This document shows positions 16,165-57,552 of a DNA stretch of 64,000 nt, in pieces. A program made the translations under genes and the position numbers. Under the pieces are notes generated by a model. That model did not search any database. It saw nothing but the letters and a program-made list of their open reading frames with translations, and was not told the DNA's origin. The stretch spans positions 2,480,001 through 2,544,000 of the forward strand of contig NZ_BHGK01000001.1 of NCBI RefSeq assembly GCF_003574295.1. The letters run 5' to 3'. Each line of letters opens with the position of its first letter. Position 1 is the first letter of the stretch. The stretch comes from Mediterraneibacter butyricigenes (GTDB lineage Bacteria; Bacillota; Clostridia; Lachnospirales; Lachnospiraceae).

Positions 16165-16189
16165 CGCACAAAGGGAAAACAATTAGAAT
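16161..16189 (+). promoter_or_regulatory. Promoter of ppdK
   Basis: TTGACG (16161-16166) and TAGAAT (16184-16189) are 17 bases apart. The -35 box overlaps the licT stop codon. Confidence 0.85.
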
Positions 16190-16231
16190 AGTTATGGTTG
16201 AAACTATTAGAAAAAATAGGAGGATTAGAAA

Positions 16232-33204: not shown

Positions 33205-33774
33205 TTACGGATGAACCGTGCTGACAAAAACAGAAGGTGTCATTGCGGAAATGCAGACGGCGGGCTTGGGGCCCGGATTGTAAATATTGTGGGGAATATT
33301 TTCCTTGAGATAAATGCAGTCCCCACTTCGAAGAGAATAAGAATTTTCTCCGGCAATGATCTCGATCTGTCCTTCCATGACATAAATCCATTCTTCGGCA
33401 TTATGAGAGATTCGTTCTTCATTGCTCCAGGAACCTTTTGAGAGACGGCTGGTAAACAGTAAAAGATCAGAGGGTTTCTGTCCGCCGATGGCAGCAGGGG
33501 TTAACAGTTCGTGGACAATTTGGGAATCAGAAAACGTCATTTTCTGTCGTTTCTCAGAACGGACCACGGCGGACTGGGTCTCACGGGTATCCATAAGTGC
33601 GAACAGAGGAGTATCCAGAACAGCTGCAATTTTGCGTAAGGTAGAAAGCGACGGATCCACCAGTCCCCGTTCTAACTGGGAAATGTAGCCGGCGGTGGTC
33701 TGGGTCTTGTCAGCCAGTTCTTTTAGGGTTAGTCCCTTTGCTTGGCGAAGGGTGCGTATTTTCTGAGGGATCAT
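33205..33774 (-). CDS. XRE-cupin transcriptional regulator A
   Basis: The 189-residue regulator joins an N-terminal helix-turn-helix (IRTLRQAKGLTLKELADKT, then AGYISQLERGLVDPSLSTL) to a C-terminal cupin sensor domain (HNAEEWIYVMEGQIEI, LKENIPHNIYNPG). Such proteins sense small ligands through the cupin. Its start overlaps the stop of the paralogous regulator upstream by four bases, so both come from one transcript. It ends convergently with the epimerase gene. The ligand and operator are unknown. Confidence 0.9.
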   Translation of the reverse strand: MIPQKIRTLRQAKGLTLKELADKTQTTAGYISQLERGLVDPSLSTLRKIAAVLDTPLFALMDTRETQSAVVRSEKRQKMTFSDSQIVHELLTPAAIGGQKPSDLLLFTSRLSKGSWSNEERISHNAEEWIYVMEGQIEIIAGENSYSLRSGDCIYLKENIPHNIYNPGPKPAVCISAMTPSVFVSTVHP

Positions 33775-34319
33775 AAGGGAATCTCCTTTCGCAAATGACC
33801 GGTACTACATAAAATACCGGAAGATGTTTCGGTGTATGAAGTAAGTTGGTAAGGTGTGTTTGTATGGATGGTAATGCTGTCTCCGGTATGGAGCACAAAT
33901 CTCTGATTTTCGAGAAAGAGAGTCAACGAACCGTTGAGTAAGTGGAGGCAGGTCTCTCCGTCATGGATTAGATGAATTCGCTCATCCCCGGGGAAAAGTA
34001 AAAATTTAAAAATCTCCATATGAGTTCTGGGATCGGAAGAAGAACTCAAAGGGATAAGGTTTAGATTGCCAAAAAGAAGAGAAGATTGTTCGGAAACTCC
34101 GGAGCGAATGATGACAGGTTCTTCATAGACAGCGTCAAAAAAAGTGACGATTGGAACATTCAAAGCGGAAGAAATTTTCCGAAGAACAGAAATAGATGGG
34201 TCTACATTGTTTCGTTCTAACTGAGAAATATAGCTTTCACTGACGCCAACACGTACTGCCAGTTCTGCCAGTGATAAATGGTTCTTCTTTCGGGTTTCGC
34301 GGATATTGTCACCGATCAT
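33771..34319 (-). CDS. XRE-cupin transcriptional regulator B
   Basis: This 182-residue paralogue has the same plan: HTH (SLAELAVRVGVSESYISQLE) and a cupin barrel (HLIHDGETCLHLLNGSLTLF, SITIHTNTPYQLTSY). It is first in a two-gene leftward operon with regulator A. An AGGAGGTACC ribosome-binding site stands before the ATG. A possible promoter (TTGACT, 18 bases, TACCAT) lies upstream, and GGTACC occurs both in that -10 region and in the ribosome-binding region, which may hint at autoregulation. Confidence 0.9.
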   Translation of the reverse strand: MIGDNIRETRKKNHLSLAELAVRVGVSESYISQLERNNVDPSISVLRKISSALNVPIVTFFDAVYEEPVIIRSGVSEQSSLLFGNLNLIPLSSSSDPRTHMEIFKFLLFPGDERIHLIHDGETCLHLLNGSLTLFLENQRFVLHTGDSITIHTNTPYQLTSYTETSSGILCSTGHLRKEIPL

Positions 34320-35985: not shown

Positions 35986-36930
35986 TTAAAGATGAATTCG
36001 TGTTCCGGTTGTTCCCAGGATTCCATCTTTGGCTTTTTCAAGCAATGTAATTAAGGACTGGCGGCCCGGCTTAGATGACGCAAAATCAACGGCAGCCTGC
36101 ACTTTCGGCAGCATGGATCCGGGAGCAAAATGTCCCTCTTCGATGTACTGCTTTGCCTGATCGACTGTGATATCGGAAAGCCATTCTTCATTTTCTTTGC
36201 CATAGTTAATGGCAGCCTTCTCAACTGCAGTTAGAATGATCAGGAAATCTGCATCCAGTTCCTTTGCAAGGAGTGCACTGGCAAAATCTTTATCGATGAC
36301 TGCACTGGCGCCTTTTAAGTGGTTGCCCTGGCGGATCACCGGAATTCCACCGCCTCCGCAGGCAATGACCAGATCACCGGAATTAACCATGGTACGGATC
36401 GTACCGATCTCGATGATCTCCTGTGGTTTTGGAGATGCAACGACACGGCGATAACCGCGTCCGGCATCTTCTTTCATGACATAATCATATTTTTCTGCCA
36501 TAAGATCGGCCTGTTCCTTTGTAAGAAAGCGACCGATCGGCTTGGAAGGTGTCTCAAAAGCAGGGTCATTTTCATCGACACGGATCTGTGTGATCATGGT
36601 GGCAACAGGAATGTCCGTGATGCCCCTGTTTAAGAGTTCTTCGCGAAGCGCGTTTTGAAGATCATACCCGATATATGCCTGACTCATGGCAACGCAGACA
36701 GAAAGCGGGGTATTTGGCTGCTGCGGATCTTCATGGGTCAGGGCGATCATGGCATTGTTTACCATGCCAACCTGAGGCCCGTTTCCGTGAGCAACCACGA
36801 CTTCGCATCCCTCTTGAATCAAATCTACGATGGCGCGTGAAGTGATTTTCACGGCTTTCATCTGTTCTGGAAGTGTATTGCCCAAGGCGTTACCGCCCAG
36901 AGCAATCACAATACGTTTTTTCTTTTCCAT
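35986..36930 (-). CDS. arcC: Carbamate kinase
   Basis: ArcC makes ATP from carbamoyl phosphate and ADP, releasing ammonia and CO2. The product is 314 residues from the ATG at 36930, preceded by GGAGGATTTCC; the frame is open further to 36963 without a better site. Family segments include IALGGNALGN at the N-terminus, VAHGNGPQVG, and VIACGGGGIPVI. It is the last gene of dpaL-ygeY-ygeW-arcC, placed 36 bases after ygeW. In this setting it would harvest carbamoyl phosphate released from a purine-derived ureido compound. Confidence 0.95.
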   Translation of the reverse strand: MEKKKRIVIALGGNALGNTLPEQMKAVKITSRAIVDLIQEGCEVVVAHGNGPQVGMVNNAMIALTHEDPQQPNTPLSVCVAMSQAYIGYDLQNALREELLNRGITDIPVATMITQIRVDENDPAFETPSKPIGRFLTKEQADLMAEKYDYVMKEDAGRGYRRVVASPKPQEIIEIGTIRTMVNSGDLVIACGGGGIPVIRQGNHLKGASAVIDKDFASALLAKELDADFLIILTAVEKAAINYGKENEEWLSDITVDQAKQYIEEGHFAPGSMLPKVQAAVDFASSKPGRQSLITLLEKAKDGILGTTGTRIHL

Positions 36931-36966
36931 TTTGGAAATCCTCCCTGTGACATCTCCTGTCAAATC

Positions 36967-38163
36967 TTATTTCAAGACTCTAGGAGTACTTCTTTCCTCT
37001 AATTTTTTCAAAATATCTGCCGGATCTGCAAATTTTGCAAGGAAGATCATCGCAGCGATAATGTACGGTTTGTAGCTTGCTTCTTTGTAAAGCGGATCTC
37101 TGTAACGATCGAAGACGCTTCCGTCTACTTCACCCTCTTCACAGCTTACGCCACTGATATCAGCCGGCAGACAGTGCAGGTAAAGTGCTTTTCCGTCTTT
37201 GGTCAGAGACATCATCTCTTCCGTACAAGCCCAGTCTTTGTGCTCTGCGTTCTGAGCCAGCAGTTCTTTTTCCAGAGCATCGATTCCTGCCTGATCGCCT
37301 TCTGCATACAGATCGGTACGTTTCTCCATGGCAGCGAACGGAGCCCAGCTCTTCGGATATACGATATCAGCATCCTTGAAGGCTTCTTTCATATCGTTGG
37401 TCTTGGTGAAGGATCCACCGGATTTCTTTGCGTTCTCTGTGGCAACTGCTTCTACTTCCGGGAAGACTTCGTACCCTTCCGGATGAGCCAGAACAACGTC
37501 CATTCCGAAACGGGTCATCAGACCGATCACGCCCTGCGGAACAGACAGCGGCTTTCCGTAAGACGGAGAGTAAGCCCATGTCATGGCCAGTTTCTTTCCT
37601 TTTAAGTTCTCGACACCGCCGAATTCGTGGATGATGTGGAGCATATCAGCCATGGCCTGGGTCGGGTGGTCAATATCGCACTGTAAGTTGACCAGGGTAG
37701 GTTTCTGCTCTAAGATTCCGTCCTTGTTGCCCTGTGTGACAGCGTCAACCACTTCGTGCATGTATTTGTTTCCTTTTCCGATATACATATCGTCACGGAT
37801 ACCGATGACATCAGCCATGAAAGAGATCATGTTGGCTGTCTCGCGGACAGTCTCACCGTGAGCAACCTGAGATTTTCCTTCGTCCAGATCCTGAACTTCC
37901 AGACCTAAGAGGTTACATGCGGAAGCGAAAGAGAAACGGGTGCGGGTGGAGTTGTCACGGAATAAAGAGATTCCAAGACCGCTCTCGAAGACTTTTGTGG
38001 AAATGTTGTTCTCTCTCATGTAGCGGAGTGCATCAGCCAGAGTGAAGACTGCTTCGATCTCATCGTCTGTCTTTTCCCAGGTCAGGAAAAAGTCTCCGTT
38101 GTACATCTCTTTAAAGTTCAGTTTGTTCAGTTTGTCAATATATCCCTGTAATTTAGCGTCCAT
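36967..38163 (-). CDS. ygeW: YgeW-type knotted carbamoyltransferase
   Basis: The 398-residue protein belongs to the aspartate/ornithine carbamoyltransferase superfamily and has the length of the YgeW branch. Carbamoyl-phosphate-binding motifs STRTRFSF, DHPTQ and HCLP are present, and the C-terminal SCEEGEVDGSVFDRYRDPLY stretch is characteristic. YgeW proteins are found in selenium-linked purine clusters; the substrate is not firmly established, but a carbamoyl transfer or phosphorolysis feeding ArcC is the expected role. Confidence 0.93.
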   Translation of the reverse strand: MDAKLQGYIDKLNKLNFKEMYNGDFFLTWEKTDDEIEAVFTLADALRYMRENNISTKVFESGLGISLFRDNSTRTRFSFASACNLLGLEVQDLDEGKSQVAHGETVRETANMISFMADVIGIRDDMYIGKGNKYMHEVVDAVTQGNKDGILEQKPTLVNLQCDIDHPTQAMADMLHIIHEFGGVENLKGKKLAMTWAYSPSYGKPLSVPQGVIGLMTRFGMDVVLAHPEGYEVFPEVEAVATENAKKSGGSFTKTNDMKEAFKDADIVYPKSWAPFAAMEKRTDLYAEGDQAGIDALEKELLAQNAEHKDWACTEEMMSLTKDGKALYLHCLPADISGVSCEEGEVDGSVFDRYRDPLYKEASYKPYIIAAMIFLAKFADPADILKKLEERSTPRVLK

Positions 38164-38241
38164 GTTATTCTCCTTTTTATCGTTGATTATGAATTGTTTA
38201 AATGATTATGTAAATAATTTAGTTTCTAAAGATGCGTAGCA

Positions 38242-39552
38242 TTACTCGCAGTAGGACATTGGAAGTGCAGCGTATACAGCAGCGCAGGTTACCAGATCCT
38301 GTTTCCATGTCATTTCATTCGGAGCGTGTGCCTGTGCTTCTGCACCAGGTCCGAATCCGATACATGGGATTCCGTTTCTACCCATGATAGAAACACCGTT
38401 TGTGGAGAAGGTCCATTTGTCAGTCAGCGGACGGGCCTGACGCATTTCAAGAGTATCAGCAGCACCGATTCTCTTTTCTCCATAGAGACCGTGGTAAGCT
38501 TTTTCCAGAGCTTTTGTTACCTTGTGATCCTTCGGAATTGCCCAGGTCGGGAAGTAACATTCGATTTCATAAACACATCCGGTATAAGAAGGACGATCAT
38601 AGTTGTACATGGATACAACAACGTCATCCCCGTATTTCTTTACGCTTGGCAGGTTGCGGATTTCGTCCAGACAGCTTTCCCAGGTTTCGCCGAAGGTCAT
38701 ACGACGGTCCAGAGATACGGCGCAGGAGTCAGCAACTGCACAACGGCTCGGAGAAGTATAGAAGATCTGAGAAGTTGTTACAGTACCGCGTCCGAGGAAA
38801 CGAGCTTCTTCCCAGTCCGGATTGAATTTCGGATTCAGCATCTTTACAAGACCTTTGATCTCTGTCTCGTCAGCGTCATCATTTTCGTTGAGGGCACGTA
38901 CATCCTGAAGAATATCAGCCATCTTGTAGATTGCATTGTCTCCACGTTCCGGAGCGGAACCATGACAGGAAACACCTTTCACATCGATACGGATTTCCAT
39001 ACGCCCTCTCTGTCCACGATAGATACCACCGTCCGTTGGCTCAGTAGATACCACGAATTCCGGGTGTACCTTGTCTTCGTTGATAATGTACTGCCAGCAA
39101 AGGCCATCACAGTCTTCTTCCTGCACAGAACCAACTACCATGATCTTGTATCCTTCCGGGATCAGGTCGTAATCTTTCATGATCTTAGCACCGTAAACGG
39201 CAGATACCACACCACCGCACTGGTCGGATACTCCACGGCCACCGATTTCTGTTTCGGTTTCATATCCGTCATAGGGATCAAATTTCCAGTTATCAATGTT
39301 ACCGATTCCAACAGTATCGATGTGTCCGTCGAAAGCGATAATTTTGTCTCCGGTTCCCATGTAACCGATTACATTTCCCTGCGGGTCGATGACAACCTCG
39401 TCAAAATTAAGCTTCTTCATCTCAGCAGCGATGGTTTCTACGTGAGCTTTCTCATCACAGCTTTCGCCCGGATTCTTAACGATGGCACGTAAGAATGCAG
39501 TCATATCTTTTTCGTAACTCTGTGCAACTTCTTTGATTTTGTTCAGATCCAT
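38242..39552 (-). CDS. ygeY: YgeY-family M20 hydrolase (selenium-metabolism-linked)
   Basis: The 436-residue protein has the M20 dinuclear zinc-peptidase/amidase pattern: metal ligands in [10 protein letters not shown], the [10 protein letters not shown] segment, the catalytic EED in [11 protein letters not shown], and a C-terminal histidine in [12 protein letters not shown]. YgeY is the M20 branch found with ygeX and ygeW and is expected to cleave an amide or ureido bond in a purine breakdown intermediate. It lies between dpaL (56-base gap) and ygeW (78-base gap) on one strand. Confidence 0.93.
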
Positions 39553-39608
39553 TGTGTATTCTCCTTTTTATTCTTGTTAATATGTAGAAATTTGTAAGTG
39601 TCTGGTTT

Positions 39609-40814
39609 CTATTTTTCGTTTCCGTCCCATACGATGGATTTGTAACGTCCCGGATCGGTATCTCCCTCGGTGGAGAAAAGCAGGACTTTGGAATCTTTAC
39701 CGAGTCCCAGATGTTCTCTTAACGGTTTGTACTCGTCCATGGTCATGATGCAGGCCAGAGTTCCGAACGGAGCAGCTCCGGATTCTCCGGAAGTTACCTG
39801 TGGATCTCCCTTGATCGGAGCAGCCAACATACGCATTCCTTTTGCAGCAACCCAGTCTGGAGATGCAATAAAGGTATCCACATGATTCTTTAAGATATCC
39901 CAGGAAATGGTGTTAGGTTCACCGCAAGCAAGACCGGCCATAATGGTTTCCATATCTCCGTCTACGATGCGGATCTTTCCGTCACCGGCAGTTGCGCCTT
40001 TGTACAGGCAGGCAGCAGCTTCAGCTTCCACAACCACAACCTTTGGAGGATTTTCAGGATAACGATTTGCAAAATAGCCTTGAACAGCTCCGGCAAGAGA
40101 ACCGACACCGGCCTGGATAAATACGTGAGTCGGGCGATCGCATCCGGCTTCCTGTAACTGATCGTTGGCTTCCATTGCCATAGTTCCGTATCCCTGCATG
40201 ATCCATGCCGGAATCTCTTCATAACCGTCCCAGGCAGTATCCTGGACCATTACGCCATGTTCTGTCTTCTCAGCCATAGCATTTGCCATACGGACACATT
40301 CGTCATAGTTATATTCTTCAATCGTAGCCTGAGCACCTTCTGCAAGGATATTGTTCAGACGGGTCTGGGTGGTTCCCTTAGGCATCAGGACAACGGCTTT
40401 CTGTCCGAGCTTGTTGGCAGCCCATGCAACGCCACGTCCGTGGTTTCCATCGGTAGCGGTGAAGAAAGTAGCCTGTCCGAATTCTTTTTTCAATGCTTCT
40501 GAAGTCAGGACATTGTATGGAAGTTCAGAAACATCTTTTCCTGTCTGCTTTGCAATGTAGCGGGCCATTGCGAAAGATCCGCCCAGTACTTTGAAGGCGT
40601 TCAGCCCGAATCGATAAGATTCATCCTTTACATATACTTCGCCAAGTCCCAGAAGAGAAGCCATCTGAGTAAGCTTTGCAAGTGGTGTTACGCTATATTG
40701 AGGAAAGCTCTCATGAAATGCTCTTGCCTTGCTGACTTCATCCAGTCCCATGACCTTCAGGTTTTCATCAGCGGTTTTCGGCATCTGGTTGACGGTCCAT
40801 TTGATTGATTCCAT
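39609..40814 (-). CDS. dpaL: Diaminopropionate ammonia-lyase
   Basis: This PLP enzyme (also called YgeX) converts 2,3-diaminopropionate to pyruvate and two ammonia. The 401-residue product has the PLP lysine in LNAFKVLGGSF, TATDGNHGRG, and the phosphate-binding glycine-rich loop GVGSLAGAV. It is first in the leftward operon, with an AAAGGAGGTTT ribosome-binding site and a promoter at 40865-40892. In the purine cluster it links ring breakdown to central metabolism through pyruvate. Confidence 0.94.
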   Translation of the reverse strand: MESIKWTVNQMPKTADENLKVMGLDEVSKARAFHESFPQYSVTPLAKLTQMASLLGLGEVYVKDESYRFGLNAFKVLGGSFAMARYIAKQTGKDVSELPYNVLTSEALKKEFGQATFFTATDGNHGRGVAWAANKLGQKAVVLMPKGTTQTRLNNILAEGAQATIEEYNYDECVRMANAMAEKTEHGVMVQDTAWDGYEEIPAWIMQGYGTMAMEANDQLQEAGCDRPTHVFIQAGVGSLAGAVQGYFANRYPENPPKVVVVEAEAAACLYKGATAGDGKIRIVDGDMETIMAGLACGEPNTISWDILKNHVDTFIASPDWVAAKGMRMLAAPIKGDPQVTSGESGAAPFGTLACIMTMDEYKPLREHLGLGKDSKVLLFSTEGDTDPGRYKSIVWDGNEK

Positions 40815-40864
40815 TGTGGAAACCTCCTTTGAAATTGTTCGACCTTTGTTGTGTTCCTAAGACC

Positions 40865-40892
40865 ATCATAGCATAAAAAAAATGAGAGTCAA
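40865..40892 (-). promoter_or_regulatory. Leftward promoter of dpaL-ygeY-ygeW-arcC
   Basis: On the minus strand TTGACT (40892-40887) and TATGAT (40870-40865) are 16 bases apart, giving a leader of about 45 bases. Confidence 0.8.
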
Positions 40893-40900
40893 TAGATTTT

Positions 40901-40915
40901 CTAAAAAATTTTTAG
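40901..40915. promoter_or_regulatory. Candidate operator palindrome in the divergent purine-cluster promoter region
   Basis: CTAAAAAATTTTTAG is a perfect 7-1-7 palindrome lying eight bases upstream of the -35 box of the dpaL promoter and about 35 bases upstream of the ssnA-side -35. Its placement suits a shared activator or repressor of both operons. The AT-rich composition makes chance occurrence more likely than for a mixed sequence. Confidence 0.45.
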
Positions 40916-40949
40916 GCACAAAAAATATTTTTTTGTTTTCTTGTTGCAT

Positions 40950-40977
40950 TTGTACACTATTGATGATATTCTATAAT
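40950..40977 (+). promoter_or_regulatory. Rightward promoter of the ssnA operon
   Basis: TTGTAC (40950-40955) and TATAAT (40972-40977) are 16 bases apart. The 5' leader of about 125 bases contains a possible stem (TGCACAG at about 41003 with CTGTG at about 41037), but I recognise no known riboswitch. Confidence 0.7.
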
Positions 40978-41110
40978 CAGTTAGCAACCCTGATATGCGA
41001 AATGCACAGAAAATAAAAAGATCGGTTCAAAACCTGACTGTGATATGTGCATAATTTATGACGGTGAAAGACAAACTGTTTTGTCGTCTGCAAGAAAGGA
41101 GAAGGAGATT

Positions 41111-42445
41111 ATGCTGATTTTAGGAAACGGAAGAGTGATTACAAGAGATCCATCCGCACCTTATATGGAAAGCGGAGCAGTTGCAATGGATGGCAGGACG
41201 ATTGTAAAGGTCGGAAGCACGGAGGAGCTGAAAAAAGCTTATCCGGATGCAGAATACATCGATGCAAAGAGAAAAGTGATCATGCCTGCATTTATTAATG
41301 CGCATGAACATATTTACAGTTCCTTTGCCAGAGGACTGTCAATCAACGGATACAATCCCAATGGCTTTCTGGATATTCTGGATGGTATGTGGTGGACCAT
41401 TGACCGGAATCTTACATTAGAAGATACATATTTAAGTGCAATGGCTACTTATGTAGAATGTATTAAAAATGGTGTCACAACCATTTTCGATCATCATGCA
41501 AGTTTTGGCTCAATTGAGGGTTCTCTTTTTGAGATCGAGAAGGCAGCAAAAGAAACAGGAGTGCGGTCCTGTTTGTGTTATGAGATTTCAGATCGTGACG
41601 GCAAGGAGAAGGCAAAGGCTTCTGTGATGGAGAATGCAGAATTTATCCGTCATGCATTAAAAGATGAGTCCGGAATGATCGCCGGTATGATGGGCATGCA
41701 TGCACAGTTTACGATTTCCGATGAGACGATGGAGCTGGCAGCAGCCAACAAACCGGATGAAGTCGGATATCATATTCATGTGGCAGAAGGAATCGAAGAT
41801 CTGCACCATTGCCTGAAACATTATGGCAAACGGATTGTAGACCGGTTGATGGATTGGGAGATTTTGGGTGAGAAAACCTTACTTGGTCACTGTATCTATA
41901 TTAATCCTCACGAAATGGATCTGATCAAAGAGACCGGAACCATGGTGGTTCACAATCCGGAATCCAATATGGGAAATGCCTGTGGATGCCCTCCGACCAT
42001 GGAGCTGGTACATCGGGGAATTTTGACCGGGCTTGGAACCGACGGTTATACCCATGATATGATGGAATCTTTCAAAGTGGCAAATGTTCTGCATAAGCAT
42101 CATCTCTGTGATCCGAATGCAGCGTGGGGAGAAGTCCCGCAGATGCTGTTTGAAAACAATGCAAAGATTGCAGAGCGCTATTTTGATCAGAAATTAGGAG
42201 TGTTAAAAGAAGGAGCTGCAGCAGATGTGATCGTGGTAAATTATGATCCGCTGACTCCGATGAATGAAAATAATATCAATGGTCACTTGGTATTCGGAGT
42301 GACCGGACATGATGTGGTAACAACAATTGCAAATGGAAAAGTGTTGATGAAAGACAGAGAATTGACTGGAATTGATGAGGCTAAAGTCATGGCAGACTGC
42401 CGTCAGGCGGCGGCAGCACTGGCAAATCGTATCAACAGCAGATAG
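41111..42445 (+). CDS. ssnA: SsnA-type amidohydrolase
   Basis: The 444-residue metal-dependent amidohydrolase is related to guanine deaminase and chlorohydrolases. Metal ligands are visible in NAHEHIYSSFARG (HxH), the later His in HIHVAEG, GHCIYI, and the Asp in GTDGYTHD. SsnA is the amidohydrolase member of the selenium-dependent purine cluster and probably opens or deaminates a purine or its product. The start at 41111 follows AAGGAGAAGGAGATT; an upstream in-frame GTG/ATG region to 41045 gives a non-family N-terminus. It is first in the rightward operon. Confidence 0.92.
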   Translation: MLILGNGRVITRDPSAPYMESGAVAMDGRTIVKVGSTEELKKAYPDAEYIDAKRKVIMPAFINAHEHIYSSFARGLSINGYNPNGFLDILDGMWWTIDRNLTLEDTYLSAMATYVECIKNGVTTIFDHHASFGSIEGSLFEIEKAAKETGVRSCLCYEISDRDGKEKAKASVMENAEFIRHALKDESGMIAGMMGMHAQFTISDETMELAAANKPDEVGYHIHVAEGIEDLHHCLKHYGKRIVDRLMDWEILGEKTLLGHCIYINPHEMDLIKETGTMVVHNPESNMGNACGCPPTMELVHRGILTGLGTDGYTHDMMESFKVANVLHKHHLCDPNAAWGEVPQMLFENNAKIAERYFDQKLGVLKEGAAADVIVVNYDPLTPMNENNINGHLVFGVTGHDVVTTIANGKVLMKDRELTGIDEAKVMADCRQAAAALANRINSR

Positions 42446-42484
42446 GGTTTACAGAAAGAAAACCGTAGAAAGGGAAAAGAACAG

Positions 42485-43924
42485 ATGAAAAAAGCAGGAT
42501 CATCAAAACCAGGGAACGAGGAACTTTTTAAATGGGATGGGAAACCTACCTTCGGACAGGCATTACCGCTGGCTCTCCAGCATGTACTGGCAGCGGCTGT
42601 CGGATGTGTGACACCGGCGATTCTTGTGGCAAATGCAGCCAACAATGCAGCAGGGGGCGGTACGGTGGATATGGGATTATTGATCCAGATGTCATTGGTA
42701 TTCGCAGGCTTATCCACCTTTCTTCAGTTGTATGGCAACAAATTTCGACTGGGATCAGGCCTTCCGGTGATCATCGGAGTCAGCTTTGCCTATGTGCCGA
42801 CGATGACGGCCATTGCGACCCAGGCGAAAGACGTGGATACGATTTTCGGAGCCATGATCATAGGTGGGATCATTGCCATTATCGTGGGCTTGTCGATCAC
42901 ACAGATTCGAAAAGTTTTTCCACCATTGGTGATCGGAACTGTAATTTTTGCCATTGGCCTTTCCTTATATAAAACTGCCATTAATTATATGGCCGGAAAT
43001 TCTGCCAATACCTATGCAGTGGTGGTGGAACAGAGAGGGCAGACAGAGGCATTGGTTTATGGTTCCTGGCAGAACTGGCTGGTTGCACTTGTAACGCTTG
43101 GGATCGTAGTAGCCCTGAATCATTATGGGAAGGGAATCCTGAAACTGGCGTCGATCCTGATCGGACTGGTCTGTGGCTACGTTCTGGCGTTGTTCTTCGG
43201 AATGGTAGATTTTTCTGCGCTTTCTACTGCGGGATGGTTCCAGATACCAAAGCCGTTCGCATTTGGAATCCGGTTTGATATTTCTGCGATGATTCCGCTT
43301 GGAATCCTGTTCCTGGTCAACTCTATTCAGGCGGTGGGAGATTTCTCTGCAACCACCAGTGGAGGGATGGACAGACTGCCGACGGATAGAGAGCTGAACG
43401 GTGGGATTATTGGGTATGGAATCGGAAACATTGTAAGTGCATGTTTTGGTTGCCCGCCGACGGCAACTTACAGCCAGAATGTGGGAATCGTAGGATCCAC
43501 GAAGGTTGTATCAAGAAAAGTGTTTACCATGTCTGCGGTGATCCTGACTGTAGCAGGACTGATTCCGAAATTTTCCGCATTGCTTCGGACGATTCCCCAG
43601 TGTGTGTTGGGAGGAGCAGTGGCATCCGTCTTTGCATCGATTGCTATGACCGGAATCAAACTGTTGGTCAGTGAGGGGTTATCCCCGAGAAATACAACGG
43701 TAGTAGGACTGTCCATTGCAATCGGAATGGGAGTGTCTTTAAGTCCGGGGTGCTTAAATCAGATGACAGCATCGATCCACCAGGCATTGCATCTTGAAAT
43801 TGTGTTGGAGGAGCTTCAGGAAATCGTCAATAATACGTTCGCATCTTCTCCGGTGGTGCTTGCAACCATCTTTGCGGTTCTGTTAAACTTGGTATTACCG
43901 AAAGACAAACCGGAAACAAACTAG
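42485..43924 (+). CDS. Purine (xanthine/uric acid) permease, NCS2/NAT family
   Basis: This 479-residue transporter has about 14 membrane segments and brings purines into the cell with an ion gradient. The N-terminal QHVLAAAVGCVTPAIL and the NAT signature SQNVGIVGSTKV (pattern N-x-G-x4-T-K) are clear, as is NSIQAVGDFSATT in the middle. It lies 39 bases after ssnA. Xanthine or urate is the most likely substrate from context; uracil-type transporters are a more distant alternative. Confidence 0.92.
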   Translation: MKKAGSSKPGNEELFKWDGKPTFGQALPLALQHVLAAAVGCVTPAILVANAANNAAGGGTVDMGLLIQMSLVFAGLSTFLQLYGNKFRLGSGLPVIIGVSFAYVPTMTAIATQAKDVDTIFGAMIIGGIIAIIVGLSITQIRKVFPPLVIGTVIFAIGLSLYKTAINYMAGNSANTYAVVVEQRGQTEALVYGSWQNWLVALVTLGIVVALNHYGKGILKLASILIGLVCGYVLALFFGMVDFSALSTAGWFQIPKPFAFGIRFDISAMIPLGILFLVNSIQAVGDFSATTSGGMDRLPTDRELNGGIIGYGIGNIVSACFGCPPTATYSQNVGIVGSTKVVSRKVFTMSAVILTVAGLIPKFSALLRTIPQCVLGGAVASVFASIAMTGIKLLVSEGLSPRNTTVVGLSIAIGMGVSLSPGCLNQMTASIHQALHLEIVLEELQEIVNNTFASSPVVLATIFAVLLNLVLPKDKPETN

Positions 43925-44021
43925 AGGTAGCGTGACGAAAAAAGAAAGAGACCGGAAAATAAGAACAGAAGAAATAAAGCGAAAACATAAAGACAGAGAA
44001 AAGAAAGAGTGAGGTAATAAA

Positions 44022-47015
44022 ATGAGTGAAGTTATGAGGCCTATGGCTTTTGAACAGTTAGTAGACTGGATCCTTACCGAAAAGAAGAAATACGGGACGG
44101 TGTTCGGAGAGCGTCATCCTTATTATGCAGATGCAAAATACAACCGTATCATTTTCGGAAGAAACTTAGAGACCCCAATCGGACCGGCAGCGGGACCGAA
44201 CACTCAGTTGACACAGAATATCGTTGCAGCATATTATACCGGCAGCAGATTCTTCGAACTGAAAACGGTTCAGGTGATGGACGGAGATGAACTGGCAGCC
44301 TGTATCAACCGTCCCTGTATCAAGGCGGATGATGAATGTTATAACTGTGAGTGGTCTACGGAACTGTTTGTGCCGCAGGCGATGGAAGAATACATCAAAG
44401 CATGGTTCCTGCTGAAAGTGATTTCCAAAGAATTTGGTCTGGGAGCAGCAGATGGATTCCAGTTCAATATCAGTGTGGGATACGATCTGGCCGGTATTCA
44501 GTCGGAAAAGATCGACAACTTCTTAAATACGATGAAACACGCACAAGATTCAAAGATTTTCAAATCCTGCAAAGCATACCTGTTAGAGCATGTGGATCTG
44601 TTTGAAAAGGTTACAAGAGAAGATATCGAGGCAATCTCCGGAGATATCTGTAATTCTGTGACCATTTCCACACTTCACGGATGTCCTCCGCAGGAGATCG
44701 AGCGGATCGCCATGTATCTGATTACAGAGAAAGGATTCCATACCTTTATCAAATGTAATCCGACCCTGTTGGGATATGAGTATGCAAGAAAGACCATGGA
44801 TGACATGGGATATGATTATGTTGCGTTCGGAGATTTCCATTTCAAAGACGATCTGCAGTACAGTGATGCCGTTCCGATGCTGAAACGTCTGATGGCAGTC
44901 TGTCAGGAGCGGAATCTGGAGTTTGGGGTAAAGATCACCAATACTTTCCCGGTAGATGTAAAGCAGGGAGAACTTCCGAGTGAAGAAATGTATATGTCTG
45001 GAAAATCTCTGTATCCGTTGTCTATTTCTGTGGCTTCTATGCTGGCGAAAGATTTCGACGGAGCCCTTCGCATTTCCTATTCCGGTGGAGCAGATTATCA
45101 CAATATCAAAGGAATCGTGGACGCAGGAATCTGGCCGGTTACGATGGCAACGACGCTCCTAAAACCGGGCGGATATGACAGAATTTCTCAGATTGCACCG
45201 CTGCTTGACGAGGAAAATGTGGTCTTCCGGGGTGTGGATGCTGAGAAGACTGCGAAACTGGTGGAAGACGCCAAAACCAATCGATATCATGTAAAGTCTG
45301 TGAAACCGCTTCCATCCAGAAAGATTAACAGAGAAGTACCTCTGATTGACTGCTTTATCGCACCGTGTAAGGAAGGTTGTCCGATCCATCAGGATATCAC
45401 CACATACCTGCAGTTGGTGGGAGAAGGAAAATATGAGGAAGCCATGGATGTGATTACCGAAAAAAATCCGCTTCCGTTTATTACAGGCACTATCTGCGCA
45501 CATGCATGCATGGGAAAATGTACCCGTAATTTCTATGAAGATCCGGTACACATCCGTGAGATGAAGAAGGTGGCAGCAGATAATGGATATGATGCACTGA
45601 TTGCAAAATTATCAGCGCCGGCTGTTACAAAAGAAGGAAAGGCAGCGGTTGTTGGTGGTGGTCCTGCCGGAATGGCAGCCGCTTACTTCTTAAGAAGAGC
45701 CGGAATGGCTGTAACTTTGTTTGAGAAGAAGTCTGCATTAGGTGGTGTGGTACGTCATGTGATTCCGGAATTCAGAATTCCGGGAACTTCGATTGATAAA
45801 GATGCAGCACTGCTTGAAAAAATAGGGGTAGAGATTCGAACCAATACAGAAATCACATCGGTGGAGGCACTGAAAGGAGAAGGGTATACCAATGTAGTTC
45901 TGGCAGTGGGAGCCTATAAACCCGGAAATGTCAGACTGGAAGCAGGAGAAGCGGTCAATGCACTGAAATTCCTGGAAGAATTCAAGGCAAAAGACGGAAA
46001 TCTGGATCTTGGAAAAGTCGTGGCAGTCATCGGTGGCGGTAACACTGCGATGGATACGGCTCGTGCGGCAAAACGCACCAAAGGAGTGGAAAAGGTTTCT
46101 CTGGTTTACAGAAGAACCAAACGCTACATGCCGGCTGATGAAGAAGAACTGGTGATGGCAGTGGAAGACGGTGTAGAGTTCATGGAACTGCTGGCACCGG
46201 TCAAAGCAGAAAACGGCAAACTGATCTGCAAGGTCATGGAATTGGGAGAACCGGATGCTTCCGGAAGAAGAGGAGTCAATGAGACAGAGGAAATCCGGGA
46301 GATCCCGGCAGATACCGTGATCGCAGCAGTCGGCGAAAAGGTTCCGGAGGAGTTCTATCGGGCAAATGGACTGAACGTCAATGAAAGAGGACGTGCGTTT
46401 GCCAATGAAGACACCTGTGAAAGCAGCGTAGCTGGTGTATATGTAGTCGGAGACGGACTGGGCGGACCGGCGACTGTAGTGGAAGGAATTCGTGACGGAC
46501 TGAAAGCGGCAGAAGCAATCATCGGAGAAAAACTGGTCAGAGATTATGATGCAAAGACAGAGGAAGCGGTCATCTATGAGCGGAAAGGGAACTTAAGTGA
46601 TATTAGGACAGATGCGGATGAAAGCAAGAGATGTCTGAACTGCGCAGCAATCTGTGAGAATTGCGTAGAAGTATGTCCGAACCGTGCCAATATCTCCATT
46701 CGTGTACCGGGACTTGCAAAGCATCAGGTGATCCACGTAGATTATATGTGTAATGAGTGTGGCAACTGTAAGAGTTTCTGTCCATATAGCAGTGCACCGT
46801 ATTTGGACAAATTTACACTGTTTGCGGACGAAGCAGATATGGAAAACAGCAAGAATCAGGGATTTACCGTCTTAGATAAAGAAAGTGTAACCTGTAAAGT
46901 ACGCCTTTTAGGTGAAGTGACAACCTGGACGAAGGGAGAAGAAACCAGAATTCCGGAGTCCCTTCAGAAACTGATGGAAACAGTCTGCGCAGAGTATGCA
47001 TATCTGTTGAGATAG
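44022..47015 (+). CDS. ygfK: YgfK, FAD/Fe-S oxidoreductase of the purine cluster
   Basis: This 997-residue protein was named a putative selenate reductase subunit but occurs consistently with anaerobic purine breakdown genes. Domains in order: a dihydroorotate-dehydrogenase-like barrel (1 to about 430; GPAAGPNTQ near 54-62), a GltD-like Fe-S segment (APCKEGCP near 445; CAHACMGKCTR near 500), two Rossmann folds for FAD and NAD(P) (GGGPAG near 545, GGGNTAMD near 668), and a C-terminal double Fe-S region (CLNCAAICENCVEVCP near 870 and CNECGNCKSFCP near 910). It may reduce a purine intermediate with NAD(P)H or pass electrons to the next two proteins. Confidence 0.93.
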   Translation: MSEVMRPMAFEQLVDWILTEKKKYGTVFGERHPYYADAKYNRIIFGRNLETPIGPAAGPNTQLTQNIVAAYYTGSRFFELKTVQVMDGDELAACINRPCIKADDECYNCEWSTELFVPQAMEEYIKAWFLLKVISKEFGLGAADGFQFNISVGYDLAGIQSEKIDNFLNTMKHAQDSKIFKSCKAYLLEHVDLFEKVTREDIEAISGDICNSVTISTLHGCPPQEIERIAMYLITEKGFHTFIKCNPTLLGYEYARKTMDDMGYDYVAFGDFHFKDDLQYSDAVPMLKRLMAVCQERNLEFGVKITNTFPVDVKQGELPSEEMYMSGKSLYPLSISVASMLAKDFDGALRISYSGGADYHNIKGIVDAGIWPVTMATTLLKPGGYDRISQIAPLLDEENVVFRGVDAEKTAKLVEDAKTNRYHVKSVKPLPSRKINREVPLIDCFIAPCKEGCPIHQDITTYLQLVGEGKYEEAMDVITEKNPLPFITGTICAHACMGKCTRNFYEDPVHIREMKKVAADNGYDALIAKLSAPAVTKEGKAAVVGGGPAGMAAAYFLRRAGMAVTLFEKKSALGGVVRHVIPEFRIPGTSIDKDAALLEKIGVEIRTNTEITSVEALKGEGYTNVVLAVGAYKPGNVRLEAGEAVNALKFLEEFKAKDGNLDLGKVVAVIGGGNTAMDTARAAKRTKGVEKVSLVYRRTKRYMPADEEELVMAVEDGVEFMELLAPVKAENGKLICKVMELGEPDASGRRGVNETEEIREIPADTVIAAVGEKVPEEFYRANGLNVNERGRAFANEDTCESSVAGVYVVGDGLGGPATVVEGIRDGLKAAEAIIGEKLVRDYDAKTEEAVIYERKGNLSDIRTDADESKRCLNCAAICENCVEVCPNRANISIRVPGLAKHQVIHVDYMCNECGNCKSFCPYSSAPYLDKFTLFADEADMENSKNQGFTVLDKESVTCKVRLLGEVTTWTKGEETRIPESLQKLMETVCAEYAYLLR

Positions 47016-47085
47016 AAAGTATTCCTGAATGGTTAGGAGTTCGAAGAAGCTGTCGCAGAAACGGCAGCTTCAGAAGAGGTGAAAT

Positions 47086-47550
47086 ATGGCACAGAGAAGA
47101 AAGAAAAGAGTGGCAGTGGTACAGTGTTCGAAAGAGGCAGGTAGTTGTCAGTGGGGCTGCATCGGATGTGGGGCATGTGTAAGCGCCTGTCGCCTGAAAG
47201 CGGTTTCAATAAATGAATATCAGACAGCGAAGATCGATCCGGAAAAATGCGTGGGCTGTGGTCTGTGCGCAAAAGCCTGTCCGCAGAACCTGATTCGTGT
47301 AACGACCGAGGAATTTACCATTTATCCGGGATGTATGAATCAGGCTCTGGGAGCGCAGACGAGAAAGGACTGTGACAAAGGATGTATTGCCTGTGGAATC
47401 TGTGTGAGGAATTGTCCGGCAGGAGCGATTCGGATCGAAGAGAATCATGCGGTGATCGATGAAGACCGATGCATTGCCTGTGGAATGTGTGCAGTGAAAT
47501 GCCCGAAGGGTGTAATCCATGACAGGGATGGCATCTTTGCGGCGATTTAG
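47086..47550 (+). CDS. Polyferredoxin-type 4Fe-4S protein
   Basis: The 154-residue soluble protein carries four cysteine clusters: one near the start (CQWGCIGCGACVSACR), CVGCGLCAKACP, a central CDKGCIACGICVRNCP and a final CIACGMCAVKCP. It resembles the RnfB ferredoxin domain. It sits between ygfK and the xanthine dehydrogenase, 21 bases before the latter, so it is the likely electron carrier between them. An AAGAGGTGAAAT ribosome-binding site precedes the ATG. Confidence 0.92.
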   Translation: MAQRRKKRVAVVQCSKEAGSCQWGCIGCGACVSACRLKAVSINEYQTAKIDPEKCVGCGLCAKACPQNLIRVTTEEFTIYPGCMNQALGAQTRKDCDKGCIACGICVRNCPAGAIRIEENHAVIDEDRCIACGMCAVKCPKGVIHDRDGIFAAI

Positions 47551-47571
47551 GAGAAAGGAGAAGGTAAGAGT

Positions 47572-50178
47572 ATGGGTGAAATCTATCGTTTTACGGTAAA
47601 TGGAATAGAGCGAAGCACCGAAGCAAACAAACCGTTGCTTCGCTATCTTCGGGACGACCTTCATCTGCACTCCGTGAAAGACGGCTGTAGCGAGGGCGCC
47701 TGTGGAACCTGTACCATTGTGGTAGACGGAAAGGCCGTGAAATCCTGTGTTCTCACGACAAAAAAGGCAGTGGGCAGAAAAATTCTCACGACAGAAGGAT
47801 TAAGCAATGCGGAAAAAGAGGCATTTGTTTATGCATTTGGGGCAAAGGGTTCTGTGCAGTGCGGATTTTGTATTCCGGGTATGGTGATGGCAGGCAAGGC
47901 ACTGATCGACCGGGTGCCGGATCCCACAGAAGAAGAGATCAAGCTTGCTTTAAAAGGAAATATCTGTCGTTGTACCGGTTATAAGAAGATCATTGAGGGG
48001 ATCCAGTTGACTGCAGCTATTTTAAGAGGAGATGTCCGTATCGACGAGGATCTGGAAAAAGGAGAAATCTACGGAGTTGGCAAACGGGCCTTCCGTACGG
48101 ATGTCAGAGCAAAGGTATTAGGATATGGGGAATATCCGGATGACATGGAGCTAGAAGGAATGGTATATGCTTCCGCTGTGCGTTCCAGATATCCGAGAGC
48201 AAAGATTCTGGATATCCATACAGAAAAAGCACTGGCACTTCCGGGAGTTCTGACAATCCTGACAGCAGAGGATGTGCCGAATAACAAAGTCGGACATTTA
48301 CAGCAGGACTGGGATGTGATGATCGCAAAAGGAGACATCACACGGTGTGTAGGGGATGCAATCTGTCTGGTGGTAGCGGAAACCAGGGATATTCTGGAAA
48401 AAGCAAAGAAACTGGTGCAGATTGATTATGAAGAATTACAACCGGTGACTTCCATCAGGGAAGCCATGAAAGAGGATGCTCCGAAAGTTCACTCGTCAGG
48501 CAATCTGTGTCAGAGCCGCCATGTGACGCGAGGAGATGCCAAAACTGCACTGGCAAATTCCAAATATACTGTGACCAGGACGTATACGACTCCGTTTACG
48601 GAGCATGCCTTCCTGGAACCGGAATGTGCGGTAGCCATGCCGTACAAAGACGGAGTTAAGATCTTTTCCACCGATCAGGGCGTGTATGATACCCGGAAAG
48701 AGACCGCCATCATGTTTGGCTGGGAGCCGGAACGGGTGGTTGTAGAAAATAAGCTGATCGGAGGCGGATTCGGAGGAAAAGAAGATGTGTCGGTGCAGCA
48801 TATTGCGGCACTGGCAGCCTATAAAGTAAAACGACCGGTAAAGGTAGTCTTTTCCAGAGCAGAATCTTTGGCGTTCCACCCGAAACGTCATGCCATGGAA
48901 GGAACCTTTACATTGGGGTGTGACGAGAATGGAATCTTTACCGGATTAGACTGCGAGATCTATTTTGATACGGGAGCTTATGCTTCCCTTTGTGGTCCGG
49001 TGTTGGAGAGAGCCTGTACCCATTCGGTGGGGCCATACTGTTATCAGAATACGGATATCCGGGGATTTGGATATTATACCAACAATCCGCCGGCGGGAGC
49101 GTTCCGTGGATTCGGAGTATGCCAAAGTGAGTTCGCGTTAGAGTCTAATATCAATCTTCTAGCAGAGATGGTGGGGATTTCTCCCTGGGAGATCCGGTAT
49201 CGAAATGCGATCGAACCGGGCAAAGTATTGCCGAATGGACAGATTGCAGACTGCTCTACGGCATTAAAGGAAACGTTGCTGGCGGTGAAAGATGCCTATG
49301 AAGCCAATCCGGGACGAGCAGGAATCGCCTGCGCCATGAAAAATGCAGGAGTCGGGGTCGGAATCCCGGACAAAGGACGGGCAAAATTAAAAGTCCGAAA
49401 CGGAAAAGTGGAACTATATTGTGCGGCTTCTGATATCGGTCAGGGATGTGCCACGGTTTTCCAGCAGATGATCGCGGAAACGACCGAACTTGGAAAGGGG
49501 CAGATCGTCGGTATGGGAAGCAACACGGAAATATCGCCGGATTCCGGAACCACTTCCGGATCCAGACAGACGTTGATTACCGGTGAAGCGGTTCGAATGG
49601 CAGCGGCAGATCTGAAAGAAGCGCTGGATCAGGCAGGGGGAAGCCTGGAGGCGCTGGAAGGACAGGAATTCTATGAAGAGTTCTTTGATCCCACAGATAA
49701 ACTGGGGGCAGATGTCCCTTATCCAAAGAGCCATGTGGCATATGGATTTGCAACCCACGTGGTTGTCATTGATGATGAAGGAAAAGTCAAAGAGGTTTAT
49801 GCAGCCCATGATTCCGGAAAGGTTGTCAATCCGATCTCCATTCAGGGACAGATCGAAGGGGGTGTGCTGATGGGACTTGGATATGCGCTGACTGAGGATT
49901 ATCCGCTGAAAGACAGTGTACCACAGGCAAAATACGGAACTCTGGGTCTGATGCGTTCCACACAGATTCCGGATATTCACGCAATTTATGTGGAGAAGGA
50001 AGAACTGCTACCATTTGCATACGGGGCAAAAGGAATCGGCGAGATTGCGACGATCCCGACAGCACCGGCGGTTCAGGGTGCTTATTATGCGATGGATCAT
50101 ATTTTAAGATCGGATCTTCCGATGAAAGATACCTTTTATTCAAGGAAAAAGGGTAAAAAGGAAACCTGGAATGGATAA
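47572..50178 (+). CDS. xdh: Selenium-dependent xanthine dehydrogenase (fused 2Fe-2S and molybdenum subunits)
   Basis: The 868-residue molybdo-hydroxylase fuses two subunits. Residues 1 to about 165 hold two [2Fe-2S] clusters (CSEGACGTC near 39, CGFCIPG near 97, CRCTGY near 132). The rest is the molybdopterin domain with GGGFGGKED (near 398), AFRGFG (near 510) and the catalytic glutamate in GAKGIGE (near 820). There is no FAD domain, so electrons must leave through a partner, probably the polyferredoxin and YgfK. The family is assigned as Se-dependent because a labile selenium ligand replaces sulfur at the molybdenum in known members; no Sec codon is needed or seen. It would oxidise or reduce purines at C2, C6 or C8. 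Confidence 0.93.
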   Translation: MGEIYRFTVNGIERSTEANKPLLRYLRDDLHLHSVKDGCSEGACGTCTIVVDGKAVKSCVLTTKKAVGRKILTTEGLSNAEKEAFVYAFGAKGSVQCGFCIPGMVMAGKALIDRVPDPTEEEIKLALKGNICRCTGYKKIIEGIQLTAAILRGDVRIDEDLEKGEIYGVGKRAFRTDVRAKVLGYGEYPDDMELEGMVYASAVRSRYPRAKILDIHTEKALALPGVLTILTAEDVPNNKVGHLQQDWDVMIAKGDITRCVGDAICLVVAETRDILEKAKKLVQIDYEELQPVTSIREAMKEDAPKVHSSGNLCQSRHVTRGDAKTALANSKYTVTRTYTTPFTEHAFLEPECAVAMPYKDGVKIFSTDQGVYDTRKETAIMFGWEPERVVVENKLIGGGFGGKEDVSVQHIAALAAYKVKRPVKVVFSRAESLAFHPKRHAMEGTFTLGCDENGIFTGLDCEIYFDTGAYASLCGPVLERACTHSVGPYCYQNTDIRGFGYYTNNPPAGAFRGFGVCQSEFALESNINLLAEMVGISPWEIRYRNAIEPGKVLPNGQIADCSTALKETLLAVKDAYEANPGRAGIACAMKNAGVGVGIPDKGRAKLKVRNGKVELYCAASDIGQGCATVFQQMIAETTELGKGQIVGMGSNTEISPDSGTTSGSRQTLITGEAVRMAAADLKEALDQAGGSLEALEGQEFYEEFFDPTDKLGADVPYPKSHVAYGFATHVVVIDDEGKVKEVYAAHDSGKVVNPISIQGQIEGGVLMGLGYALTEDYPLKDSVPQAKYGTLGLMRSTQIPDIHAIYVEKEELLPFAYGAKGIGEIATIPTAPAVQGAYYAMDHILRSDLPMKDTFYSRKKGKKETWNG

Positions 50179-57445: not shown

Positions 57446-57479
57446 GAGCGGTACTTACGCCCGCTCTCGGGAAGTACCG
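57446..57479 (+). repeat. Two mutually exclusive hairpins after the permease
   Basis: GAGCGG (57446-57451) can pair with CCGCTC (57461-57466), or CGGTACTT (57449-57456) can pair with AAGTACCG (57472-57479). The stems share CGG, so they compete. It lies between convergent genes with no T run. Confidence 0.45.
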
Positions 57480-57552
57480 GGGCTTCGGATGTTCCCTTAT
57501 GCAATCCTTTTGCGGGATATATAAGAAGCAGGCTTAAGATGTTGTAGCAACA

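Follow-up and report, generated by a model that had tools for sequence, protein, structure and literature searches.

A polyferredoxin gene beside xdhAC in a reductive urate cluster of Mediterraneibacter butyricigenes, a candidate electron donor gene

The purine gene cluster

The window analysed here is a 64,000-nucleotide stretch of the Mediterraneibacter butyricigenes contig NZ_BHGK01000001.1 (positions 2,480,001 to 2,544,000; G000:C1:2480001-2544000 in our numbering; genome 3.03 Mb). At 35986-50178 it carries a purine gene cluster that includes a small polyferredoxin (PFd) gene directly upstream of xdhAC, the gene for a single-chain enzyme of the xanthine dehydrogenase (XDH) type, and the relation of these two genes is our main subject. 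Nine open reading frames were confirmed there, arranged as two divergent runs, as the initial annotation had described them (Table 1). Eight of the nine products (ArcC, YgeW, YgeY, YgeX, SsnA, NCS2, YgfK and XDH) exceeded curated NCBIfam cut-offs. Genes within the runs are separated by 21-97 bp, the ygeW-arcC gap being 3 or 36 bp according to the arcC start; ribosome-site context makes the ATG at 36930, which follows AGGGAGG, more likely as that start than the TTG at 36963. So tight a nine-gene arrangement is far beyond chance. An XDH-type reductase, YgfK, SsnA, YgeW, YgeY and YgeX are present together, and the family matches confirmed the proposed identity of the nine genes as a reductive (anaerobic) uric-acid cluster like those of gut bacteria. 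The cluster as such is ordinary, and its pathway is already known.

Table 1. Coordinates of the cluster, the second purine locus and selD (positions without a prefix are those of the window)
Feature	Location	Strand	Evidence or remark
arcC/yqeA, carbamate kinase	35986..36930	-	TIGR00746 372.8 bits, above cut-off; 66% identity to E. coli YqeA
ygeW copy 1, carbamoyltransferase	36967..38163	-	TIGR03316 797.3 bits
ygeY, hydrolase	38242..39552	-	TIGR03526 653.3 bits
ygeX/dpaL, diaminopropionate ammonia-lyase	39609..40814	-	TIGR03528 632.5 bits
divergent promoter/operator region	40815..41044	.	element also occurs in the gap between yheO and hyuA at the second locus
ssnA, aminohydrolase	41045..42445	+	NF005540 683.4 bits
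NCS2-type purine permease	42485..43924	+	TIGR00801 (NCS2 superfamily) 322.8 bits, above cut-off; Xan_ur_permease
ygfK, flavin/Fe-S reductase	44022..47015	+	TIGR03315 1387.1 bits; 42% identity to E. coli YgfK over 1042 columns
anchorless RnfB-like polyferredoxin (PFd), 154 aa	47086..47550	+	four 4Fe-4S motifs; RnfB-like profile and fold
xdhAC, single-chain Mo/[2Fe-2S] xanthine-dehydrogenase-type enzyme, putative urate reductase	47572..50178	+	TIGR03311 1269.6 bits
guaD-like gene	second locus		361.3 bits, below cut-off 375.4
xdhA, xdhB, xdhC	L011:13695-18744		second locus
HAD-like gene	second locus		between xdhABC and ygeW copy 2 in listed order
ygeW copy 2	G000:C1:2735668-2736864 = L012:1668-2864	-	
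YheO-like PAS_6/HTH_22 putative regulator	L012:2900-3553	-	second locus
hyuA, hydantoinase	G000:C1:2737761-2739158 = L012:3761-5158		TIGR02033 529 bits, cut-off 393.25; 37% identity to E. coli HyuA
yqeC, yqeB	second locus, after hyuA		yqeC 190.3 bits; yqeB 350.6 bits
selD	C1:1217668		406.7 bits

Previous work has assigned most of the chemistry (PMC12507026, PMC12771579 and PMC2276186 are cited here from excerpts of their text). Li et al. 2025 (PMC12507026) reported that E. coli XdhD-YgfM converts urate to yanthine with reduced nicotinamide adenine dinucleotide (NADH) as donor, that YgfK and SsnA reduce yanthine and open its ring to give ureidomethylhydantoin, that HyuA converts the latter to diureidopropionate, and that YgeW, YgeY and YgeX carry diureidopropionate through albizziin and diaminopropionate to pyruvate. 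The scheme in the initial annotation, with import, reduction, ring opening, recovery of carbamoyl phosphate as adenosine triphosphate (ATP) and DpaL acting last, agrees with this pathway; the accompanying remark that the order and substrates of YgeW, YgeY, SsnA and YgfK were poorly defined is outdated, because Li et al. assigned those steps. Percudani 2025 (PMC12990295) sets the Li et al. pathway against that of Liu et al. 2025, and lists as remaining questions in which order the two ureido groups are cleaved, what the stereochemistry is, and which physiological donor supplies electrons to XdhAC, a donor, possibly with an accessory protein, that is still to be discovered. The same source gives the conversion of urate to 2,8-dioxopurine by Clostridium sporogenes XdhAC. 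By family membership, the NCS2 permease would import a purine, XdhAC would reduce urate to yanthine, YgfK and SsnA would reduce and open the ring, HyuA, encoded about 200 kb away, would open the hydantoin, YgeW with ArcC would recover carbamoyl phosphate as ATP, and YgeY with YgeX would yield pyruvate and ammonia. The window holds most of a reductive urate-degradation system, with steps known for relatives; judged by the nearest XdhAC loci, its host is probably a Lachnospiraceae-type bacterium. The permease scored 361.4 bits with the narrower xanthine-permease model pbuX, below the cut-off of 414.15. A stretch of YgeY that is extra relative to the E. coli protein was considered as a special feature and rejected, because 19 of 19 aligned relatives have it.

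In XdhAC, Pfam recognised Fer2, Fer2_2, Ald_Xan_dh_C, MoCoBD_1 and MoCoBD_2 domains. No FAD_binding_5 domain, the mark of a flavin adenine dinucleotide (FAD) subunit, was found in XdhAC, and the sole match to this domain genome-wide was xdhB of the second purine locus described below. XdhAC has the properties of the selenium (Se)-dependent XDH family TIGR03311, that is, a score above the equivalog cut-off and one chain with 2Fe-2S and molybdenum (Mo) domains and without FAD. Of the earlier label "Se-dependent xanthine dehydrogenase", the family match stood; "Se-dependent" is a family name, not a measurement.

The E. coli cluster (xdhD-ygfM-ygfK-ssnA-hyuA-ygeW-ygeY-ygeX-yqeA; PMC12507026) is alike in ygfK, ssnA, hyuA, ygeW, ygeY, ygeX, the carbamate kinase and a purine permease. 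It differs in that E. coli uses XdhD with the FAD partner YgfM and NADH, whereas the XdhAC of the present genome (25.5% identity) is without a FAD partner and has PFd beside it; further, neither hyuA nor the Se-cofactor genes belong to the cluster here, and the place of ygeV in the E. coli K-12 region is taken by a YheO-like regulator gene. The urate systems of C. difficile and C. sporogenes (PMC12507026, PMC12990295) resemble the present one in a Mo reductase without a FAD subunit, as stated for C. difficile, and in a probable low-potential donor, which Li et al. proposed to be ferredoxin for the C. difficile enzyme. YgfK and YgeW are retained here, in contrast to UacX and UacY in C. difficile, and an adjoining candidate for a dedicated ferredoxin is identified.

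A polyferredoxin related to RnfB

The initial annotation had the polyferredoxin in its gene list, correctly, but named it as a list item only, and so missed its importance. PFd gave Fer4 matches in Pfam and contains four CxxCxxCxxxC motifs. Among the NCBIfam matches listed (best 25 of 96), only the generic FdxA_fam model NF058577 was above its cut-off (69.4 vs 65). Profile comparison matched PFd to RnfB chains at E 5.7e-48, the alignment starting at about RnfB residue 98, and an AlphaFold2 model with a predicted local distance difference test score of 84 gave template-modelling (TM) scores of 0.83 to RnfB 9eri_B and 0.81 to 7zc6_B. PFd is the ferredoxin domain of RnfB, a subunit of the Rnf ferredoxin:NAD+ oxidoreductase, minus the N-terminal membrane anchor of about 90 residues. 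RnfB-type NCBIfam models likewise matched all 13 full-size PFds that make up our PFd profile family, A3.

Although PFd has the RnfB ferredoxin fold, it has no anchor, lies between ygfK and xdhAC rather than in an rnf operon, and does not group with RnfB. The 13 full-size PFds formed a single clade (100/100), apart from 30 RnfBs that included this genome's own, encoded at G000:C1:126095-126517; Rnf genes are present in the genome. Further, three Coriobacteriia genomes (G696, G697 and G699) have a full-size PFd and gave no RnfB match at E 1e-20, so that PFd is not an Rnf part in these three, and with the separate clade we rejected the idea that PFd is a part of Rnf. A fourth genome, G720, gave neither a PFd nor an RnfB match at E 1e-20; a half-size PFd was seen at its XdhAC locus. 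We also rejected an identification of PFd with the E. coli ferredoxin YgfS. Both are small multi-cluster iron-sulfur (Fe-S) proteins of a urate region, but YgfS is of another ferredoxin type, with only 29% identity over 100 residues. Between the window PFd and that of L046, nonsynonymous divergence (dN) was 0.28-0.29 and synonymous divergence (dS) 1.3-2.2, which suggests purifying selection, the dN/dS ratio being rough because dS is near saturation.

Iron-sulfur modules and the proposed electron input to XdhAC

To survey XdhAC neighbourhoods, titled genome records were scanned by XdhAC alignment, and the best 80 of at least 588 relatives gave 80 loci (1,480,475 bp). In a separate set, the order sample, 24 of 295 genomes were above the TIGR03311 cut-off; several of its loci end early at contig ends. 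An RnfB-type PFd adjoined XdhAC or was fused to it in 14 of the 80 loci. It was full-size, separate and upstream of XdhAC in seven (L045, L046, L054, L055, L057, L058, L074), half-size and upstream in L106, half-size and sharing a single open frame with XdhAC in L050, and downstream of XdhAC in five (L078, L081, L085, L087, L113). In three Spirochaetales loci (L067, L070, L075) a multi-cluster ferredoxin of an unrelated type was fused to the XdhAC C-terminus; those of L067 and L070 were also recognised by Pfam, and that of L075, where the contig ends, by motifs only. An Fe-S module of either type was present at 17 of the 80 loci. In the order sample, G209 (L034:1438-5157) has XdhAC fused in one frame to the large-subunit domain of an [FeFe]-hydrogenase (Fe_hyd_lg_C, 269 bits), a possible hydrogen-driven purine reductase. 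The PFd family accompanies XdhAC in Lachnospiraceae, in Coriobacteriia (Collinsella, Olsenella) and in others.

Two further observations bear on whether this neighbourhood is specific. When 38 of the 80 genomes were scanned whole with the PFd profile, 12 matches scored 197-225 bits, and every one was a full-size PFd at XdhAC. The next match scored 156.8 bits, and the remainder were open frames of at least 265 residues, except for the half-size PFd of L050. Among 398 genomes of the phylum, for each of which the best 9 first-look candidates were scored, only the window PFd exceeded 165.8 bits. In a 99-row XdhAC tree, which omits the incomplete rows L079, L111, L116 and L118 as well as L037 of the order sample (L036 being the window itself), the Fe-S label needs at least seven changes, each of them required by branches with good support; on this tree the window falls in a group with L045, L046 and L050 (support 96).

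We propose that PFd is probably the dedicated low-potential electron donor of XdhAC, an enzyme that has no FAD/NADH module of its own. Urate reduction requires low-potential electrons; the urate/xanthine couple lies near -0.36 V, and ferredoxin lower. From the gene's identity, adjacency, family and clade we infer the transfer of electrons, its partner and its direction: electrons would pass from the ferredoxin pool to PFd, then to the [2Fe-2S] clusters of XdhAC, to Mo and to urate. Urate reduction would in that case run on ferredoxin, not on NADH as with E. coli XdhD-YgfM, and the Rnf of this genome could reduce ferredoxin with NADH. There is precedent in the same enzyme family, in that 4-hydroxybenzoyl-CoA reductase accepts electrons from reduced ferredoxin (PMC12771579). 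That enzyme and the urolithin C dehydroxylase Ucdh are alike in being xanthine-oxidase-family enzymes that remove hydroxyl groups reductively (PMC12771579). Ucdh differs in having three subunits, one of them a FAD subunit, and NADH as donor (PMC12771579), whereas XdhAC lacks a FAD subunit and would use a separate ferredoxin.

Several results weigh against PFd as the donor. Sixty-three of the 80 XdhAC loci have no ferredoxin beside or fused to XdhAC; in five of these (L079, L082, L111, L116 and L118) the sequence stops no more than 62 bases from XdhAC on one side. Likewise, 22 of the 24 order-sample genomes have no Fe-S module within about 1.5 kb of XdhAC, both sides having been checked, so that most XdhACs must use another donor. 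In the order sample, a FAD subunit lay no more than one gene from XdhAC in three genomes (L022 directly, L025 and L038 with xdhC between), against two, the window and G209, that have an Fe-S module in reach, which speaks against a strict rule of Fe-S instead of FAD; among the 80 loci, a FAD subunit adjoined XdhAC in one (L102). Further, the PFds were collected by their position beside XdhAC, and 12 of the 13 PFds from which the A3 profile was made were the ones re-found in the 38-genome search, so that their high scores arise partly by construction; the informative part of the PFd searches is the absence of other PFd-like sequences, which is not by construction. PFd also diverges faster than XdhAC (65% vs 88% identity to L045).

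The many loci without a ferredoxin are what would be expected if PFd were a neighbour with no specific role, either an operon hitchhiker or a general ferredoxin. We regard this as very improbable, given that the ferredoxin is found repeatedly, upstream or downstream of XdhAC or fused to it, that the Fe-S label changes so often on well-supported branches, and that no PFd copy was found elsewhere in the 38 genomes searched. Moreover, 13 of the 14 open reading frames of fewer than 400 residues with at least two CxxCxxCxxxC motifs in the 80 loci directly adjoin XdhAC; a crude estimate of the chance of this, which takes one gene per kb and disregards kinship, is about 3e-12.

Gene order bears on a second alternative, in which PFd serves YgfK, or both reductases, by delivering electrons to the yanthine-reducing step or by carrying them from the YgfK flavin site to XdhAC. 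The order ygfK-PFd-xdhAC in the window, L054, L055 and L057 fits this alternative, as does the fact that YgfK, too, is a flavin/Fe-S enzyme, with relatives among the glutamate-synthase-type reductases. However, the gene directly upstream of PFd is yqeB in L045, L046, L058 and L074, and five loci have PFd on the downstream side of XdhAC, so that PFd is tied to XdhAC more than to YgfK; the L050 open frame fuses the ferredoxin to XdhAC, not to YgfK, and the domain scan found in YgfK a pyridine-nucleotide module of its own. A role for PFd with YgfK is accordingly unlikely in our view.

The direction of electron flow might also be the reverse, with XdhAC acting oxidatively as a purine or xanthine hydroxylase and PFd as the acceptor, the electrons being disposed of as reduced ferredoxin or hydrogen. 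Members of this enzyme family are mostly oxidative (PMC12771579), the L034 hydrogenase fusion could evolve H2, and E. coli XdhD resembles the XdhA of this genome (29.8%, 317 bits) more closely than it does XdhAC (25.5%, 227 bits). This last comparison also counts against XdhAC as the urate reductase, since it means that sequence alone does not make XdhAC one; the assignment relies on the cluster in which XdhAC lies and on the activity reported for XdhAC of C. sporogenes. On the other side, for oxidation the genome has xdhABC, a separate set with FAD that lies next to a guaD-like gene, XdhAC is placed among reductive urate genes, and the C. sporogenes enzyme reduces urate to 2,8-dioxopurine (PMC12990295). 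We judge the oxidative alternative to be quite unlikely.

Returning to PFd as the donor of XdhAC, the survey allows a broader proposal, towards which we lean slightly: that anchorless RnfB-type ferredoxins are a dedicated electron-input subunit of XdhAC, and that they are one of several interchangeable Fe-S modules (RnfB-type, spirochaete fused ferredoxin, G209 [FeFe]-hydrogenase domain) repeatedly recruited in place of a FAD/NADH subunit.

The split pathway and its possible regulator

A second purine locus lies about 200 kb from the cluster on the same contig (Table 1). The initial annotation correctly gave hyuA as absent from the cluster, and it had proposed looking elsewhere in the genome for hyuA, an XdhB or FAD-type partner and Se-cofactor genes; hyuA, xdhB, yqeB, yqeC and selD were all found. 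A pathway without hyuA was thus rejected, hyuA being located in the second locus. The genes yqeB, yqeC and selD are markers of Se-dependent molybdenum hydroxylases (Haft and Self 2008, PMC2276186), and all three are present in the genome, outside the cluster.

The two YgeW proteins are identical at 397 of 398 residues. Their genes lie in a 1216-bp block with 22 mismatches (about 98% identity), the ends of which are no more than 14 bases from the gene ends. The second ygeW is not an assembly duplicate, because of these 22 mismatches and because both copies are on one contig. One copy of a dispersed 64-bp repeat (L012:1520-1583) closely follows ygeW copy 2 at its 3' end; the repeat also occurs at window 57454-57517 and has 36 matches in the genome.

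In L045, L047, L062 and L069 the gene order is ssnA-NCS2-ygfK-hyuA-yqeC-yqeB-xdhAC, with PFd before xdhAC in L045, and in L048 ygeW-ygeY-ygeX-yheO is divergent from ssnA. Because relatives have hyuA-yqeC-yqeB inside the cluster, the cluster is split in this genome, and its two loci are complementary subsets of the relatives' order, each around a similar divergent promoter region. The two loci would have arisen by duplication or by a split, with loss of complementary genes and later levelling of ygeW, and the change would presumably have run in this direction.

The ygeX/ssnA and yheO/hyuA gaps have about 112 bp in common, with 71% identity, and the 20-mer ACCATCATAGCATAAAAAAA has exact matches genome-wide only in these two gaps. 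The palindrome CTAAAAAATTTTTAG was found in the ygeX/ssnA gap of the window and in L047, with a close form in L062, and is not intact in the aligned yheO/hyuA gap of the second locus. The promoter element was also present upstream of ssnA in L047 and L062; L048 was only loosely alike. A YheO-like gene (>50 bits) occurs in 20 of the 80 XdhAC loci and is divergent from ssnA within 900 bp in 11; the YheO-like gene of L047 ends at the contig end. Together, the split cluster and the common promoter element point to the YheO-like protein as a putative regulator, or switch, of the pathway.

Elsewhere in the window, a 469-residue serine hydrolase of the beta-lactamase/penicillin-binding fold (PF00144; 34495-35904) lies beside arcC and is below all class C beta-lactamase cut-offs among the matches listed. 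Two tandem HTH_3-cupin regulator genes (33205-34319) adjoin a mandelate-racemase-type gene. An 862-residue open frame lies antisense to the pyruvate phosphate dikinase gene (16148-18736 on the minus strand and 16232-18859 on the plus strand); Pfam yielded no match for this frame at E 1e-8, and a codon-bias shadow is its probable explanation.

Among the literature matches listed (titles and abstract starts of open-licence papers), none named such a donor for XdhAC, apart from the general ferredoxin suggestion of Li et al.; for polyferredoxin with xanthine dehydrogenase, the matches listed were, by title, tungsten-enzyme papers only. New here are the proposed electron input variant, the split organisation and the probable regulator, the pathway itself being known, and PFd is the most informative gene of the cluster. 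Gut bacteria that destroy uric acid influence host urate levels, and a specific gene linked to XdhAC makes the donor question testable and is relevant to the question of which source of electrons is limiting for the pathway in the gut. PFd is also a candidate part for urate-degrading probiotics. In sum, if the broader proposal holds, urate removal in some gut bacteria would be driven by ferredoxin or by hydrogen.

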